A stretch of 64,000 bases of DNA, taken from the NCBI RefSeq assembly GCF_003413745.1, contig NZ_QVID01000001.1:868001-932000 (forward strand). The letters run 5' to 3'. This stretch comes from Marixanthomonas ophiurae (lineage in GTDB: Bacteria > Bacteroidota > Bacteroidia > Flavobacteriales > Flavobacteriaceae). Below are positions 33,792-38,828 of the stretch, piece by piece (position 1 is the stretch's first letter; every line of letters starts with the position of its first letter). The position numbers and the translations under genes are program-made. A model generated the notes under the pieces. It did no database searches, was not told the DNA's origin, and saw only the letters and a program-made list of their open reading frames with translations.

Positions 33792-34715
33792 TTATGTTAA
33801 TTCTATATCAAATTGTGTTAGGCTTTGAAATTGTTTCAAGCGCTGATGTACTTCTTTTTTTGTGAGACCCTCCAATCGTTCTGTTCCAAATTTTTCTACA
33901 CAGAAGGAAGCTAAAGCCGAACCATAAATAATGGCATTCTTCATATTTTCGAAACTGTAATCTGCGGTTTTTGCCAAATAACCTGTAAATCCTCCTGCAA
34001 AGGTATCTCCAGCTCCGGTTGGGTCAAAAACTTCTTCTAATGGTAATGCGGGTGCAAAGAAGACATCTTCATTATGAAATAATAATGCGCCGTGTTCCCC
34101 TTTTTTAATGACCACATATTTAGGTCCCATCTCTCTTATTTTTTGAGCTGCAACCACCAATGAATATTCGCCGGTTAATTGCCTAGCCTCTTCATCGTTA
34201 ATCGTAATTACATCTACCTTAGCAATGACTTGTTTTAATTCGGCTAACGCATGATCCATCCAAAAATTCATGGTATCTAATACTATTAATTTTGGCGAAT
34301 CCATTTGCTCAATTACGCTTAATTGGACGAGTGGGTGCAAGTTTCCTAACATCACTACTTCAGCATCTTTATAGCTTTCAGGTACTTTTGGCTGGAAATT
34401 TTCCAATACATTCAACTCGGTTGCCAAGGTGTCGCGGGAATTCATATCGTTATGGTATTTACCACTCCAAAAGAATGTTTTTCCCTCCTTAATAATTTCA
34501 AGTCCTGAAACATCCAAATTATTGTTTTTCAGCATAGCGATATATTCTTCTGGAAAATCACCTCCAACTACTGAAACAATGGCGCCATCGGCATTAAATT
34601 GACTAGCAGCCAATCCTATATATGTAGCGGCGCCACCTAATATTTTATCGGTTTTGCCAAAAGGCGTTTCAATAGCGTCGAAAGCAACGGTACCAACTAT
34701 AACAAGTTTGCTCAT
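33792..34715 (-). CDS. PfkB-family sugar/nucleoside kinase
   Basis: I take ATG 34715 (MSKLVIVGTVAFD); the longer frame begins with TTG inside a hairpin. At 307 residues it has the N-terminal PfkB glycine signature LGGAATYIG and the C-terminal signature DPTGAGDTFAGGF with the catalytic Asp. Family members phosphorylate ribose, adenosine, fructose or similar; the position upstream of purF suggests a ribose or nucleoside substrate, which is inference only. Confidence 0.85.
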   Translation of the reverse strand: MSKLVIVGTVAFDAIETPFGKTDKILGGAATYIGLAASQFNADGAIVSVVGGDFPEEYIAMLKNNNLDVSGLEIIKEGKTFFWSGKYHNDMNSRDTLATELNVLENFQPKVPESYKDAEVVMLGNLHPLVQLSVIEQMDSPKLIVLDTMNFWMDHALAELKQVIAKVDVITINDEEARQLTGEYSLVVAAQKIREMGPKYVVIKKGEHGALLFHNEDVFFAPALPLEEVFDPTGAGDTFAGGFTGYLAKTADYSFENMKNAIIYGSALASFCVEKFGTERLEGLTKKEVHQRLKQFQSLTQFDIELT

Positions 34716-34722
34716 ATCTAAT

Positions 34723-34738
34723 GCCCGCAAAAGCGGGT
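34723..34738. other. CCCGC hairpin just upstream of the PfkB start
   Basis: On the coding strand ACCCGC-TTTT-GCGGGC is followed by ATTAGAT and the ATG. On the plus strand it reads into ATCTTTTT. A near copy precedes the gene at 45896. Confidence 0.5.
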
Positions 34739-34863: not shown

Positions 34864-35424
34864 TTATTTTTGAATGGTAATATAAGTTCTTGTATCTGAA
34901 TCATCAAAAATGTCTTTAACCTCTTTTAACTCTCCGTTAATATAAAGCTCAAAAGTTCTTTCGAAGTTAGATTGTAAAATATCTATTATTTTTAATGTGT
35001 CAAATTCTTCGTTGGGATATTGTAATACATATTGTCTTTCATTTGTCCAACTATCATCTTCCTTTACTTCGTCATTTTCCCAGCCTTGGCCATAAACCAA
35101 TGCAATATATTCACTTTCCGGGCAATTGTCATTAGGACATTCGGGACCGAACAAAACCATCTCATTATCAAAAGTGTTTACCCTGCCTAAATTGCTCAAT
35201 TCAGGGTTTTCGGTACTATATGTAATTTCGCCATCCTCTTTAGACTGAACAAGGCCAATTTTAACTTCGTTGTTTTCAAATAAAGAGCCATCCTGTATTA
35301 AAAATTGAAAATAGAGTTCTTTATTGTCTGGATCATTTTGAGGTGTTGTACTTTCTTCTTTGTTACAAGCAACAAATAAAGAAAGGCATACCAATAAGGT
35401 GCTAAAATAAAATACTGTTTTCAT
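34864..35424 (-). CDS. Lipoprotein of unknown function, paralogue 2
   Basis: A lipobox (SLFVAC) ends a 20-residue signal peptide in this 186-residue protein. I do not recognise a family. It is a paralogue of the preceding gene: both share DGS.FEN, a DGEI/NGEI segment, a short two-Cys loop (CPNDNC here), Y.L.Y..E..DTL.I and the C-terminal YITI.K. It is probably a surface or periplasmic beta-rich protein. It follows its paralogue by 25 bases in the protease operon. Confidence 0.65.
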   Translation of the reverse strand: MKTVFYFSTLLVCLSLFVACNKEESTTPQNDPDNKELYFQFLIQDGSLFENNEVKIGLVQSKEDGEITYSTENPELSNLGRVNTFDNEMVLFGPECPNDNCPESEYIALVYGQGWENDEVKEDDSWTNERQYVLQYPNEEFDTLKIIDILQSNFERTFELYINGELKEVKDIFDDSDTRTYITIQK

Positions 35425-35449: not shown

Positions 35450-36013
35450 CTATTTCTCTATAGTAATATAATTAGCGCTAAACAGACTAAAATTAGTTGG
35501 TTCACCTAGAATTTCTTTCTCTTGTCCATTAAGGAAAAAAGTGAAATCAGTCGATGGTGGATTTGTATAAAAACGCTCTCTTATTCGAAGCGTATCGGTA
35601 TCATCACCTTGATATCTTAGCAAGTAGTATCTATTAATGTCGTAAGCATCTTCTTCCTCATATTCAATATTTTCCGGACTCATAGAAAAAATGAATCCAA
35701 TATAATCACCTAGACAACTTTGTCCTGCACATTGCGTGCCAGTTAAAGTTTTATCTATATCGTCTAGATACTCTACTTTCCCCATTGGCACCCAATGGAT
35801 AATTTCGCCAGTGGGAACTATTTCACCATTTTCCATTTTCATTTCATCTGACAATTCAACACTTCCATTTTCAAAAAAACTTCCGTCTACTTTTGAAATA
35901 TCAAAATATAAAAAATAATCTGCAGGGATACCTCCACTATCATTGCTTTCGTCTTTATTACAGCCTGCACACAATAACAGGAATAAGCTGCTTAAATATA
36001 GTAATGCTTTCAT
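35450..36013 (-). CDS. Lipoprotein of unknown function, paralogue 1
   Basis: The signal peptide ends at lipobox LCAGC; length is 187. It shares the framework of the next gene (DGSFFEN, CAGQSC, YYLLRYQ, DTLRIRE, NGQEKEI, YITIEK). It starts four bases after the M43 protease stop, so the two are cotranscribed and probably translationally coupled. A role as partner, substrate-binding or protective protein for the protease is possible but unsupported by direct evidence. Confidence 0.65.
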   Translation of the reverse strand: MKALLYLSSLFLLLCAGCNKDESNDSGGIPADYFLYFDISKVDGSFFENGSVELSDEMKMENGEIVPTGEIIHWVPMGKVEYLDDIDKTLTGTQCAGQSCLGDYIGFIFSMSPENIEYEEEDAYDINRYYLLRYQGDDTDTLRIRERFYTNPPSTDFTFFLNGQEKEILGEPTNFSLFSANYITIEK

Positions 36014-36017
36014 AATT

Positions 36018-37992
36018 TTATTTTTTTAAGATTAATTTTTTAGTGAAATATTTTTCTTGCCCAATAAGCTTTACAAAATAGATACCCGAGGAATAATTTT
36101 GTATGTTTAATGAAAAGGTATCCTTTTTATATCTTTTTTGTCTATAGAGTACTTGGCCCAACAAATCATATAAAATCAATGTATATTTGGTTTGATCTGG
36201 TGGCACAATAGTGATACGTCCTGATGTTGGATTTGGATATAGTTGCAAATCTCCAGTAAATTTAACAGGCAGATTCGTTTCATTGGATAGTACTACATTA
36301 TTTCCAGTTTCTATAGCGAGTATTGAATCAGAATGTTTTTCAGTTTCTGTTTTTTCACTGTTTGGACGTGTCGAAAAACATTGCTGTGCTGGTGGTGGCG
36401 GATCTCCATGCACAATTGTTTTTTGTCCAAATACACTGCCATCACAGAGCCCAGTTACTTCTAAATCGAGTATTGTTTCGTCTGAAGGATGAACCGCTAA
36501 TGCCACATCTACTTCATTAGTCCCTTGTCCCGAGACAATAGAGCCATGGGTTACGCTCCAATCATAATTTACAGATGGAAAATCAGGTGCTGTGTATGTA
36601 TAAGTAAAAAGTGGGCACGCTTGGTCGAGTCCGTCAATATCAATGGTAAAAATATCTAAAACACTAAATTTTGCTGTCTTTGTACCACAATTGGGTGTTA
36701 CTTTTATCACACCACCAAAATCGCTGACTGCCTCTACAGTAAGGGTATTGGTGCCTTGACCGCTTAAAATATTCATATTATACGGTGGATCCCAAGTATA
36801 CTCTGTAACACCCGGCAAGGTATTTACAGTATAAGTAGCGGTTTGCCCTGCGCAAATACTTGAAGGGCCTGTAATTTCAAAATTTGGATAATTAATGCCA
36901 ATGTCGCCAATGTAACCGTACATTTTTCCAACTTGCAATGGAGAAAAAGAATTTCTACAATTTGATGGTGCATAGCTCATTATATTTGTAACATCAGGAG
37001 TCCAATTATCATTCCAGTTATCAGAACCTCCATCCATGGTATTATAATCACAAGGAAAATCTACATAAGATTCAGGGACTCTTCCGATTTTTCTTAATCC
37101 AGGATCAGCTTGTGTATCACATAAAGCATCGCCATTAATTTCACATTTTAAATCATCAATCGTACTAACACAAAAAACACCCTGTCTTTTAGACCTGCTT
37201 ACAGCCTCTTGGTAACAATTACCGGCACTTTCGTTATAATGTTCACTGGAACGGGAGGTTTCTTGGGTGTGTAAGAGCCCTAATGTATGCCCTATTTCGT
37301 GTCCTAAAGTTTTTGATATAGACGAAGACCCTCCAATACTTACAGCGCAGGTGTATGCCCTTGGGTCAGGTATGCCTGGAAAAAGCTCGAAAGGAAAATT
37401 TGCTTTGCCTCCCCATATTTCCCTATTGGGGGGAGGAGCGGAATGTAAAACAAAATGCACGTTAATTGCACCTGTTGTTTTGTTGCTTAACGTGTAATCA
37501 TCAAAATATTGTTCTCCATAATTTGCATAATTACTGTTATTTACCTCACTAATATCACATAATAAGTAGAAATTAATATTGCTTTCATATGCATAAAGAG
37601 AATTTAATTGGTCAATAACATTGTAAACTTGACTGTTTGAAATATTTCCGGCACCATTGTCATTTTTATAAATCCAAGCTTTGATGGGAATGTTTCTTTT
37701 ATAACTTTCTGCGGAAAACCTGCTTTGATCCATAACCATTTTGGCGGTTCCTTCCATTACATTCTTCATATAATTGGTATCGATATTTACTTTGTTTTCC
37801 AAAAGTATGTCCACCAATTTTTGATTATTGCCAAAGAACTTGTCGTTTTTATAGGCTCCTGGCGCTGCTTCTGTACCACAATCTAGAGGGTCAGGGTTTT
37901 TTTGTGAAAAAAGTATAAAAGATGAAAACAGTAAAAATAGAAATAAAGTCCCTTTTAAAAAATTGAGGGGGGGGGGTAGTGGTTAGCTTCAT
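36018..37992 (-). CDS. T9SS-exported M43 (pappalysin-like) metalloprotease, out of frame at a poly-C tract
   Basis: From TTG 37815 down, 599 residues are open: the zinc motif HEIGHTLGLLH, a Met-turn NIMSYAP, two PKD-like domains, then a T9SS type A sorting domain (YPNPTSGRITIV...GIYFVKLI...KKLILKK). The frame stays open upstream through a signal peptide (FLKGTLFLFLLFSSFILFSQ) and mature start DCGTEAAPG, but has no ATG/GTG. The only ATG, at 37992 (MKLTTT), leads into ten C and is then one base off, giving a 33-codon peptide. With nine C the gene is 657 residues with perfect signal peptide. This is either a phase-variable OFF state or a sequencing error. Two lipoprotein genes follow in the operon. 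Confidence 0.8.
37967..37976 (-). repeat. Ten-base poly-C tract (coding strand) in the protease signal region
   Basis: Ten consecutive G on the plus strand occupy codons 6-9 after ATG 37992. Nine or twelve would be in frame with the protease. I noticed no comparable G/C homopolymer elsewhere in the window. Confidence 0.9.
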
Positions 37993-38189: not shown

Positions 38190-38828
38190 CTATTTCCTCC
38201 CAAAATCTGCTGGAATTTCGCCCCACGCTTTGGTTTCCCATTTAACCACTTTGGTGGAATAAGTGTTTGTTTTAAGCCAAGTTTCGGCTCGGGCAATTAA
38301 TTCAAATAACGATTTATTTTTTGAAGACTTCTTTAATTTAGTGTTGCATTTTTTTCGTTTTACCCACCCCATCGCAATTTTGCTGTCCGTATAAATAATA
38401 CGGTCGCTATTAATCTTTTTTAAATAGGCTAATCCGTGAACCAATGCTAAAAACTCACCCACATTATTTGTGCCTTGCTTAAATGTCCCTTGATGAAACA
38501 ATTGCTTATGCGTTTGCGTATCTACACCGCGATATTCCATTTTCCCAGGGTTGCCGCTAGAAGCCGCATCAACAGCGATGGAATATAAGTTTGGCTGGCC
38601 TATTTTGGCTAATTGCTCTTTGGTGAGTGTTTTTTTCTTTTTGGTATTTTTTCCTTTATAGTCAGCATATTCTTTACTGAAGGCAATTTTTGCTTCTTTT
38701 AAACTTTCAAAGCTTTTGTATTGTGCACCGGTAACTCCTGTAATAGCTTTTTTGCATTCTTTCCAACTGTGAAAAATTCCTGCTGGGTTTCCAAACCAGA
38801 CTACATAATATTTTTTGGTCTTTGCCAT
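38190..38828 (-). CDS. RNase HI with N-terminal viroplasmin (HBD-like) domain
   Basis: Residues 1-50 (YYVVWFGNPAGIFHSWKECKKAI) form a caulimovirus viroplasmin-like domain that binds RNA-DNA hybrids, as in eukaryotic RNase H1. The C-terminal ~135 residues are RNase HI with AVDAASSGNPG, NNVGEFLALVHGL and IYTDSKIAMGW supplying the Asp-Glu-Asp catalytic set. It removes RNA primers and R-loops. Its ATG overlaps the purN stop by TGATG, so the two are translationally coupled. Confidence 0.88.
   Translation of the reverse strand: MAKTKKYYVVWFGNPAGIFHSWKECKKAITGVTGAQYKSFESLKEAKIAFSKEYADYKGKNTKKKKTLTKEQLAKIGQPNLYSIAVDAASSGNPGKMEYRGVDTQTHKQLFHQGTFKQGTNNVGEFLALVHGLAYLKKINSDRIIYTDSKIAMGWVKRKKCNTKLKKSSKNKSLFELIARAETWLKTNTYSTKVVKWETKAWGEIPADFGRK

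Follow-up and report, generated by a model that had tools for sequence, protein, structure and literature searches.

Gene organization of the protease locus

The window analysed here is a stretch of 64,000 nucleotides from Marixanthomonas ophiurae (NCBI RefSeq assembly GCF_003413745.1, contig NZ_QVID01000001.1, positions 868,001 to 932,000 of the forward strand). It carries an insert of three genes, encoding a secreted protease and two lipoprotein-like proteins, between an rnhA-like gene and a gene for a PfkB-like sugar kinase, which we take to be rnhA and pfkB. The following features, numbered from the first base of the window, were located:

38190..38828, reverse strand, rnhA-like gene, upstream border of the insert
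37891..37992, reverse strand, short ATG frame of 33 codons followed by a stop, the state of this assembly
37967..37976, reverse strand, C10 tract
37902..37964, reverse strand, signal-peptide-like segment NFLKGTLFLFLLFSSFILFSQ of the long frame, right after the tract, recognized by eye
36018..37982, reverse strand, open frame of 654 codons (stop included), out of register with the ATG, secreted protease
37269..37301, reverse strand, zinc motif HEIGHTLGLLH
36972..36986, reverse strand, Met-turn region NIMSY
36669..36881, reverse strand, PKD-like domain, the better of two PKD_6 stretches (Pfam)
36030..36242, reverse strand, T9SS type A sorting domain (Por_Secre_tail, TIGR04183)
35450..36013, reverse strand, first downstream lipoprotein-like gene, lipobox recognized by eye
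34864..35424, reverse strand, second lipoprotein-like gene
33792..34730, reverse strand, PfkB-like sugar kinase gene, downstream border of the insert

The ATG begins at base 37992, and its frame stops at 37893 after 33 codons. The C10 tract starts 16 bases past base 37992 and lies between the start codon and the signal-peptide-like segment. The long frame opens at 37982, next to a TAA (37985-37983), and its stop ends at 36018. It holds no ATG, GTG or TTG ahead of the TTG at 37817, and CTG and ATA are the only conceivable starts before residue 55 (numbered from 0). Recomputed frames bear out the layout given in the preliminary description of this DNA, that is an ATG, ten C, a dead end of 33 codons and a long frame elsewhere, as well as its claim that the long frame lacks a usable start. 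As in SSR contingency loci, a simple repeat is found in the coding region close to the start, and its length would decide between the early stop and the 654-codon frame. The ATG of the first lipoprotein-like gene is four bases past the protease stop, and the two lipoprotein-like genes are paralogues with 33% identity.

Analysis of the protease as a single sequence gave matches above the Pfam cut-offs to PKD_6 (two stretches) and Por_Secre_tail (PF18962), and TIGR04183 was likewise above its cut-off; three reprolysin-type matches were below cut-off and PF05572 (M43) gave no match. A profile of 13 sequences of relatives, compared with PDB, matched ulilysin (4e-13), pappalysin-2 (1e-9) and mirolysin (2e-5), and the M43 label is based on these matches. 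The protein shows the HExxHxxGxxH motif, the Met-turn and the profile similarity of peptidase family M43, yet no single-sequence match to PF05572. Its C-terminal sorting domain is that of T9SS type A cargo, and at the N-terminus the long frame shows, by eye, the signal-peptide-like segment. Both class assignments of the preliminary description are confirmed: the M43 protease by the zinc motif, NIMSY and the profile match to ulilysin, and the T9SS sorting domain by PF18962 and TIGR04183.

Relatives of the protease and the rnhA-pfkB site

No full-length relative of the window protease was found in the six other Marixanthomonas genomes, one of which (G003) is only 55% complete, and a contig scan with the single window protein gave 17 pattern matches and no relative. 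Some match was present in 97 of 397 Flavobacteriaceae genomes, and a near-full-length relative only in Patiriisocius marinus (G314), the single genome with the protease among the 11 of its genus. The P. marinus protease has 42% identity over positions 1-492 of 500 (38% overall), conserves the zinc motif found in the window protease and sits at the same rnhA-pfkB site. It is also followed by a lipoprotein homologue, which shows 34% identity to the product of 35450..36013. The gene begins with ATG, two AAA codons, TTT and an A (ATGAAAAAATTTA), followed by 11 C, and its ATG is out of frame with an open frame of 618 codons. Neither of these two M43 genes has its ATG in frame, so that this exact gene is known only in the out-of-frame state. 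P. marinus has a second M43-type copy (L080, G314:C2), which is degraded and shows two internal stops.

The fetched loci also contain 30 M43-type genes that are more distant (one duplicate removed); all have their ATG in frame and no 5' C/G run above 5. The preliminary description had made the case depend on whether relatives carry a homopolymer at this position. The sole full-length relative, located at the same site, does have a poly-C tract and is out of frame, with C11 at the same point as the window tract; the 30 more distant genes have none.

The rnhA site was compared in 35 genomes: seven of Marixanthomonas, 27 further loci among the best 30 of 283, and P. marinus. This is not a random sample because it was assembled from the best 30 of 283, four more Marixanthomonas and P. 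marinus. In 19 of the 35, rnhA directly adjoins pfkB; a gene on the opposite strand is next to rnhA in 12, and a sense-strand gene without repeat in one (L279). In the remaining three (the window, P. marinus and HGW-Bacteroidetes-2), the next gene lies on the sense strand and carries a poly-C tract located 126-216 bases past rnhA. The first 400 bases in the other 32 genomes contain no C/G run of at least 7, no A/T run of at least 9 and no five dinucleotide units. While the genes of the window and P. marinus encode M43-type proteases, HGW-Bacteroidetes-2 shows a frame of 229 codons with ten C and an out-of-frame ATG. This frame weakly matches the start of the subtilase domain (Pfam E 0.007, below cut-off), and the truncated gene probably encodes a subtilase. 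Tract-bearing protease genes are found at the rnhA-pfkB site in three genera, the third gene being truncated and probably a subtilase, which goes beyond the preliminary description.

In six loci (L205, L208, L272, L275, L284 and L292), the rnhA-pfkB interval carries secreted-looking proteins on the opposite strand, with a VGIGT..P.A.LEI-like N-terminus. This interval has the appearance of a hot spot for insertion.

Frequency of homopolymeric tracts

The C10 tract is the sole C/G run of at least 8 in the 3.30-Mb genome of the window. A first-order Markov model with the composition of the window predicts about 22 C/G runs of at least 8, and about one of at least 10, in 3.3 Mb. Long C/G runs therefore look depleted in this genome, and the presence of a single C10 is by itself no surprise. 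With 3000 genes assumed, such a run has a chance of about 5% of falling in the 60 bases that follow a start. The weight of the argument lies in recurrence in relatives, rather than in the window tract alone.

The 397 Flavobacteriaceae genomes were scanned for ATGA followed by nine C 5-32 bases on, with the reversed pattern as control (control genomes were counted by hand). Start-proximal C9 was not enriched (37 of 397 genomes, compared to 34 of 397 in the reversed control), and start-proximal G9 was slightly enriched (46 of 397 and 31 of 397, respectively). The exception was the genus g235 (G244 and G403), with 48 poly-C matches against 23 in the reversed control. Since there is no general enrichment of C9 or G9, the claim rests on specific gene families. 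The places examined from the C9 scan were 30 loci plus 20 that were fetched; the remainder, mostly in the two g235 genomes, was left out.

Such tracts also occur in non-protease genes, for example in L081, L096, L223, L224, L230 and L231. In G244 and G403 (e.g. L224, L230 and L231), some C9 tracts precede lipoprotein-like or secreted-protein-like frames, with differing frame states. In addition, L263 (G085) contains G9 near an ATG that is out of frame with a lipoprotein-like frame of 251 codons, and a run of 22 C lies amid short intergenic repeats in M. spongiae (L065, 1691-1712).

A second family of secreted metzincins

When the loci from the C9 scan were read, a second family of secreted metzincins emerged, which shows HExxH and Pfam matches below cut-off. 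NCBIfam gave no name for this family, and its profile gave weak matches in PDB, the best of them 1e-3, to metzincins. Alignment A1 was built from four seeds picked for their tracts, and the contig scan with A1 gave 44 loci. Marixanthomonas spongiae HN-E44 has a member with C9 that is in frame, and its syntenic orthologue in UBA3356 also has C9 and is out of frame; the shared locus shows 84% DNA identity over 5.6 kb. Out-of-frame members were also found in Planktosalinus lacus (C11) and in HGW-Bacteroidetes-2, which has a C10 copy and a distant C9 copy. Further members show G9, G12, (CA)8, (TC)11 or (CT)6 between the start and the signal-peptide core. The recurrence of the layout in another protease family is likewise not part of the preliminary description.

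We counted repeats in 43 members, all of them sharing 34% identity or more with a seed over a match that reaches the first 60 seed residues; weaker, edge-cut or 5'-truncated members were left out. With a threshold of a C/G run of at least 8 or six dinucleotide units, nine of the 43 show a repeat in the 155 bases of the 5' zone. Because the four A1 seeds had been chosen for their tracts, the count was also made without them, giving five of 39. The remainder of the frames of the 43 members, 56,351 bases, contains no such repeat. In five members (L141, L161, L163, L170 and L198) the ATG is out of frame although no clear repeat is present, which fits decay or other indels. Neither a threshold repeat nor an out-of-frame start is found in 28 members (fragment L155 set apart), so the design is recurrent, not universal. 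On a quick tree of 37 rows, made without bootstrap and with 11 of its 34 inner branches open, the minimum number of changes of repeat presence was eight.

Four of the loci, L161, L163, L170 and L198 (three Aequorivita and one UBA3591), contain long metzincin frames off register with only short T runs near the break. Furthermore, in seven loci a second-family metzincin is directly followed by a gene for a secreted protein of about 460 residues (L158 5477-6859, L159 5497-6891, L174 5528ff, L183 5576-6967, L186 5523-6941, L175 5262-6704 and L209 1190-2560). Among the partners scanned, FG-GAP repeats were found in five of five and a T9SS tail in four of five, with the contig end truncating the remaining one (L174). 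The metzincin and the secreted protein of about 460 residues are a recurrent two-gene unit.

Frame states and selection

Frame class was defined as the distance from the ATG to the open frame, modulo 3, with 0 meaning in frame. Across the 13 repeat-bearing genes of both families, tallied by hand, classes 0, 1 and 2 are represented by three, seven and three genes. The tally comprises nine of the 43 second-family members, the two M43 genes, L151 (32% identity) and L166, whose C7 is below threshold, lies at the end of the signal peptide and is in frame. L121 shows a further stop soon past its tract, and the fragments L150 and L155 were left out. This distribution is compatible with random states. 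As expected of contingency loci, tract and layout are kept in relatives with different frame states, the M43 gene itself being found only out of frame.

The offset also bears on programmed recoding, in which the ribosome would shift frame, or the polymerase slip, at the C run and a constant fraction of full protease would result. Five of the eight poly-C genes of both families fall in one offset class, including both M43 copies, and homopolymers of at least 8 are named as transcriptional slippage sites in the relevant passage of PMC3711429. A programmed frameshift was considered since the two M43 copies share their offset class and was dropped on the mixed states, which argue against a fixed recoding site. 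Furthermore, there is one orthologue whose ATG is plainly in frame, and CA or CT repeats are used by other genes, so that the relatives show neither the constant offset nor the single kind of slippery site of a programmed ribosomal frameshift. We regard recoding as very improbable.

An assembly error in the homopolymer, with a different true tract length and a gene that is simply on, also appears improbable. Homopolymers are error-prone in some sequencing technologies and the window gene is represented by one assembly only. Against an error, the ORF map of the window, at the level of an overview rather than gene by gene, reveals no further gene that is obviously split, although A/T runs reach 11, and assemblies of other genera carry tracts or other repeats in the same position, where most of the genes are likewise out of frame. 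Even were the C10 length wrong, the tract and its recurrence would still stand.

The dN/dS ratio was calculated by the Nei-Gojobori method with the first 40 codons trimmed; pairs other than those reported were saturated. The ratio was 0.077 between L112 (UBA3356, out of frame) and L113 (M. spongiae, in frame), 0.079 between L197 (in frame) and L198 (out of frame, without a clear repeat), 0.12 between L164 (in frame) and L170 (out of frame), and 0.34 between L111 and L141, both out of frame and the latter without a long tract. All these values, the three of 0.08-0.12 and that of 0.34, come from the sister family, as the window gene has no close relative and is represented by its intact long frame. 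The out-of-frame genes of the second family look mostly maintained, with some of them apparently decaying.

These ratios bear on the view of the window gene as a pseudogene, inactivated by a single homopolymer indel and with decay under way. Degraded relatives do exist, namely the second P. marinus copy with its two stops and the truncated gene that G291 carries at the rnhA-pfkB site, as do second-family members off frame without a repeat and the L111/L141 pair with its higher ratio. However, the window frame is free of stops over 654 codons, the P. marinus copy is also off frame yet intact, both genes retain the zinc motif, and the three in/out pairs of the sister family, although not of the window gene, show low ratios. 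We consider decay an unlikely explanation.

Discussion

The window gene is probably a contingency, or phase-variable, locus for a T9SS-exported M43-type metalloprotease. The comparison of genomes favours phase variation over error or decay, and the sequencing error and the single inactivating mutation that the preliminary description had listed as alternatives appear less likely. Its reading of the gene as phase-variable gains support from the poly-C tract of P. marinus and from the second-family repeats in mixed frame states. Because the start repeats of relatives are in mixed states, the enzyme is probably switched on and off randomly between cells.

Slipped-strand mispairing at repeats is an established mechanism (described in PMC3723659), and at the C tract it would alter the tract length during replication. 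A clone would then come to contain two kinds of cell, one producing and exporting the protease and the other ending translation after about 33 codons, with the sequenced genome caught in the off state. The downstream lipoprotein genes are probably on the same transcript and may fall with the protease by polarity. Slipped-strand mispairing is the simplest cause, as it needs no partner, suits all the kinds of repeat found and would make enzyme loss reversible.

The nearest analogue in function is the phase-variable secreted protease NalP (AspA) of Neisseria meningitidis. Its coding sequence contains a poly-cytosine tract of which only certain lengths are in frame, as checked by immunoblot (PMC3723659). 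The tract length sets expression in NalP, as the poly-C length would in the window gene. NalP is a type V autotransporter of human-associated Neisseria, whereas the window protease belongs to a marine member of the Bacteroidota and is a metzincin of M43 type that ends in a T9SS tail; the tract of its gene lies between the start and the signal peptide. Based on inlA, Orsi et al. (2010) describe 5' poly-A/poly-T tracts as a general switch in which a frameshift leads to a very short product, and give a tract mutation rate about 1000-fold above the average point mutation (PMC2831843). The window gene shares the 5' tract and the very short product upon frameshift; the repeats of the secreted proteases studied here are poly-C, poly-G and dinucleotides rather than poly-A/poly-T. 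A term search of the text of PMC2831843 gave no Bacteroid- or Flavobacter- word. Ulilysin, mirolysin and the pappalysins share with the window protease the profile similarity, HExxHxxGxxH and the Met-turn, to which the window protease adds PKD-like domains, a T9SS tail and a putatively repeat-controlled start.

Simple-repeat phase variation has been studied mostly in host-adapted pathogens, and phase variation in Bacteroidota mostly as DNA inversion. A 2025 review describes phase variation in Bacteroides as driven by invertases, and its text has no word beginning Flavobacter or protease (PMC11868660). The window gene would resemble these systems as phase variation of a surface function in Bacteroidota and differ from them in that simple-repeat slippage, instead of an invertase, would be the cause. 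Among the titles and abstract starts surveyed in an open-access library, we found no report of repeat-mediated phase variation of T9SS cargo or metzincins. The mechanism is already known, as in NalP, and the setting is apparently new.

Repeat-switched genes can pass for pseudogenes or receive wrong starts, which is a warning for annotation; as such genes may be called pseudogenes or mis-started, part of the T9SS secretome may be overlooked. Tentatively, and with the balance slightly against it, we propose that the secreted proteases of marine Flavobacteriaceae could form a phase-variable arsenal. Poly-C, poly-G, CA and CT repeats would have arisen repeatedly between the start and the signal-peptide core of metzincins, and the rnhA-pfkB interval would be a contingency site holding different proteases (M43 in two genera, a truncated and probably subtilase gene in a third) behind a poly-C switch, so that extracellular proteolysis would be hedged as a public good. 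A repeat switch on an exported protease of a marine flavobacterium would point to bet-hedging of extracellular digestion, which is a shared good, at the level of single cells.
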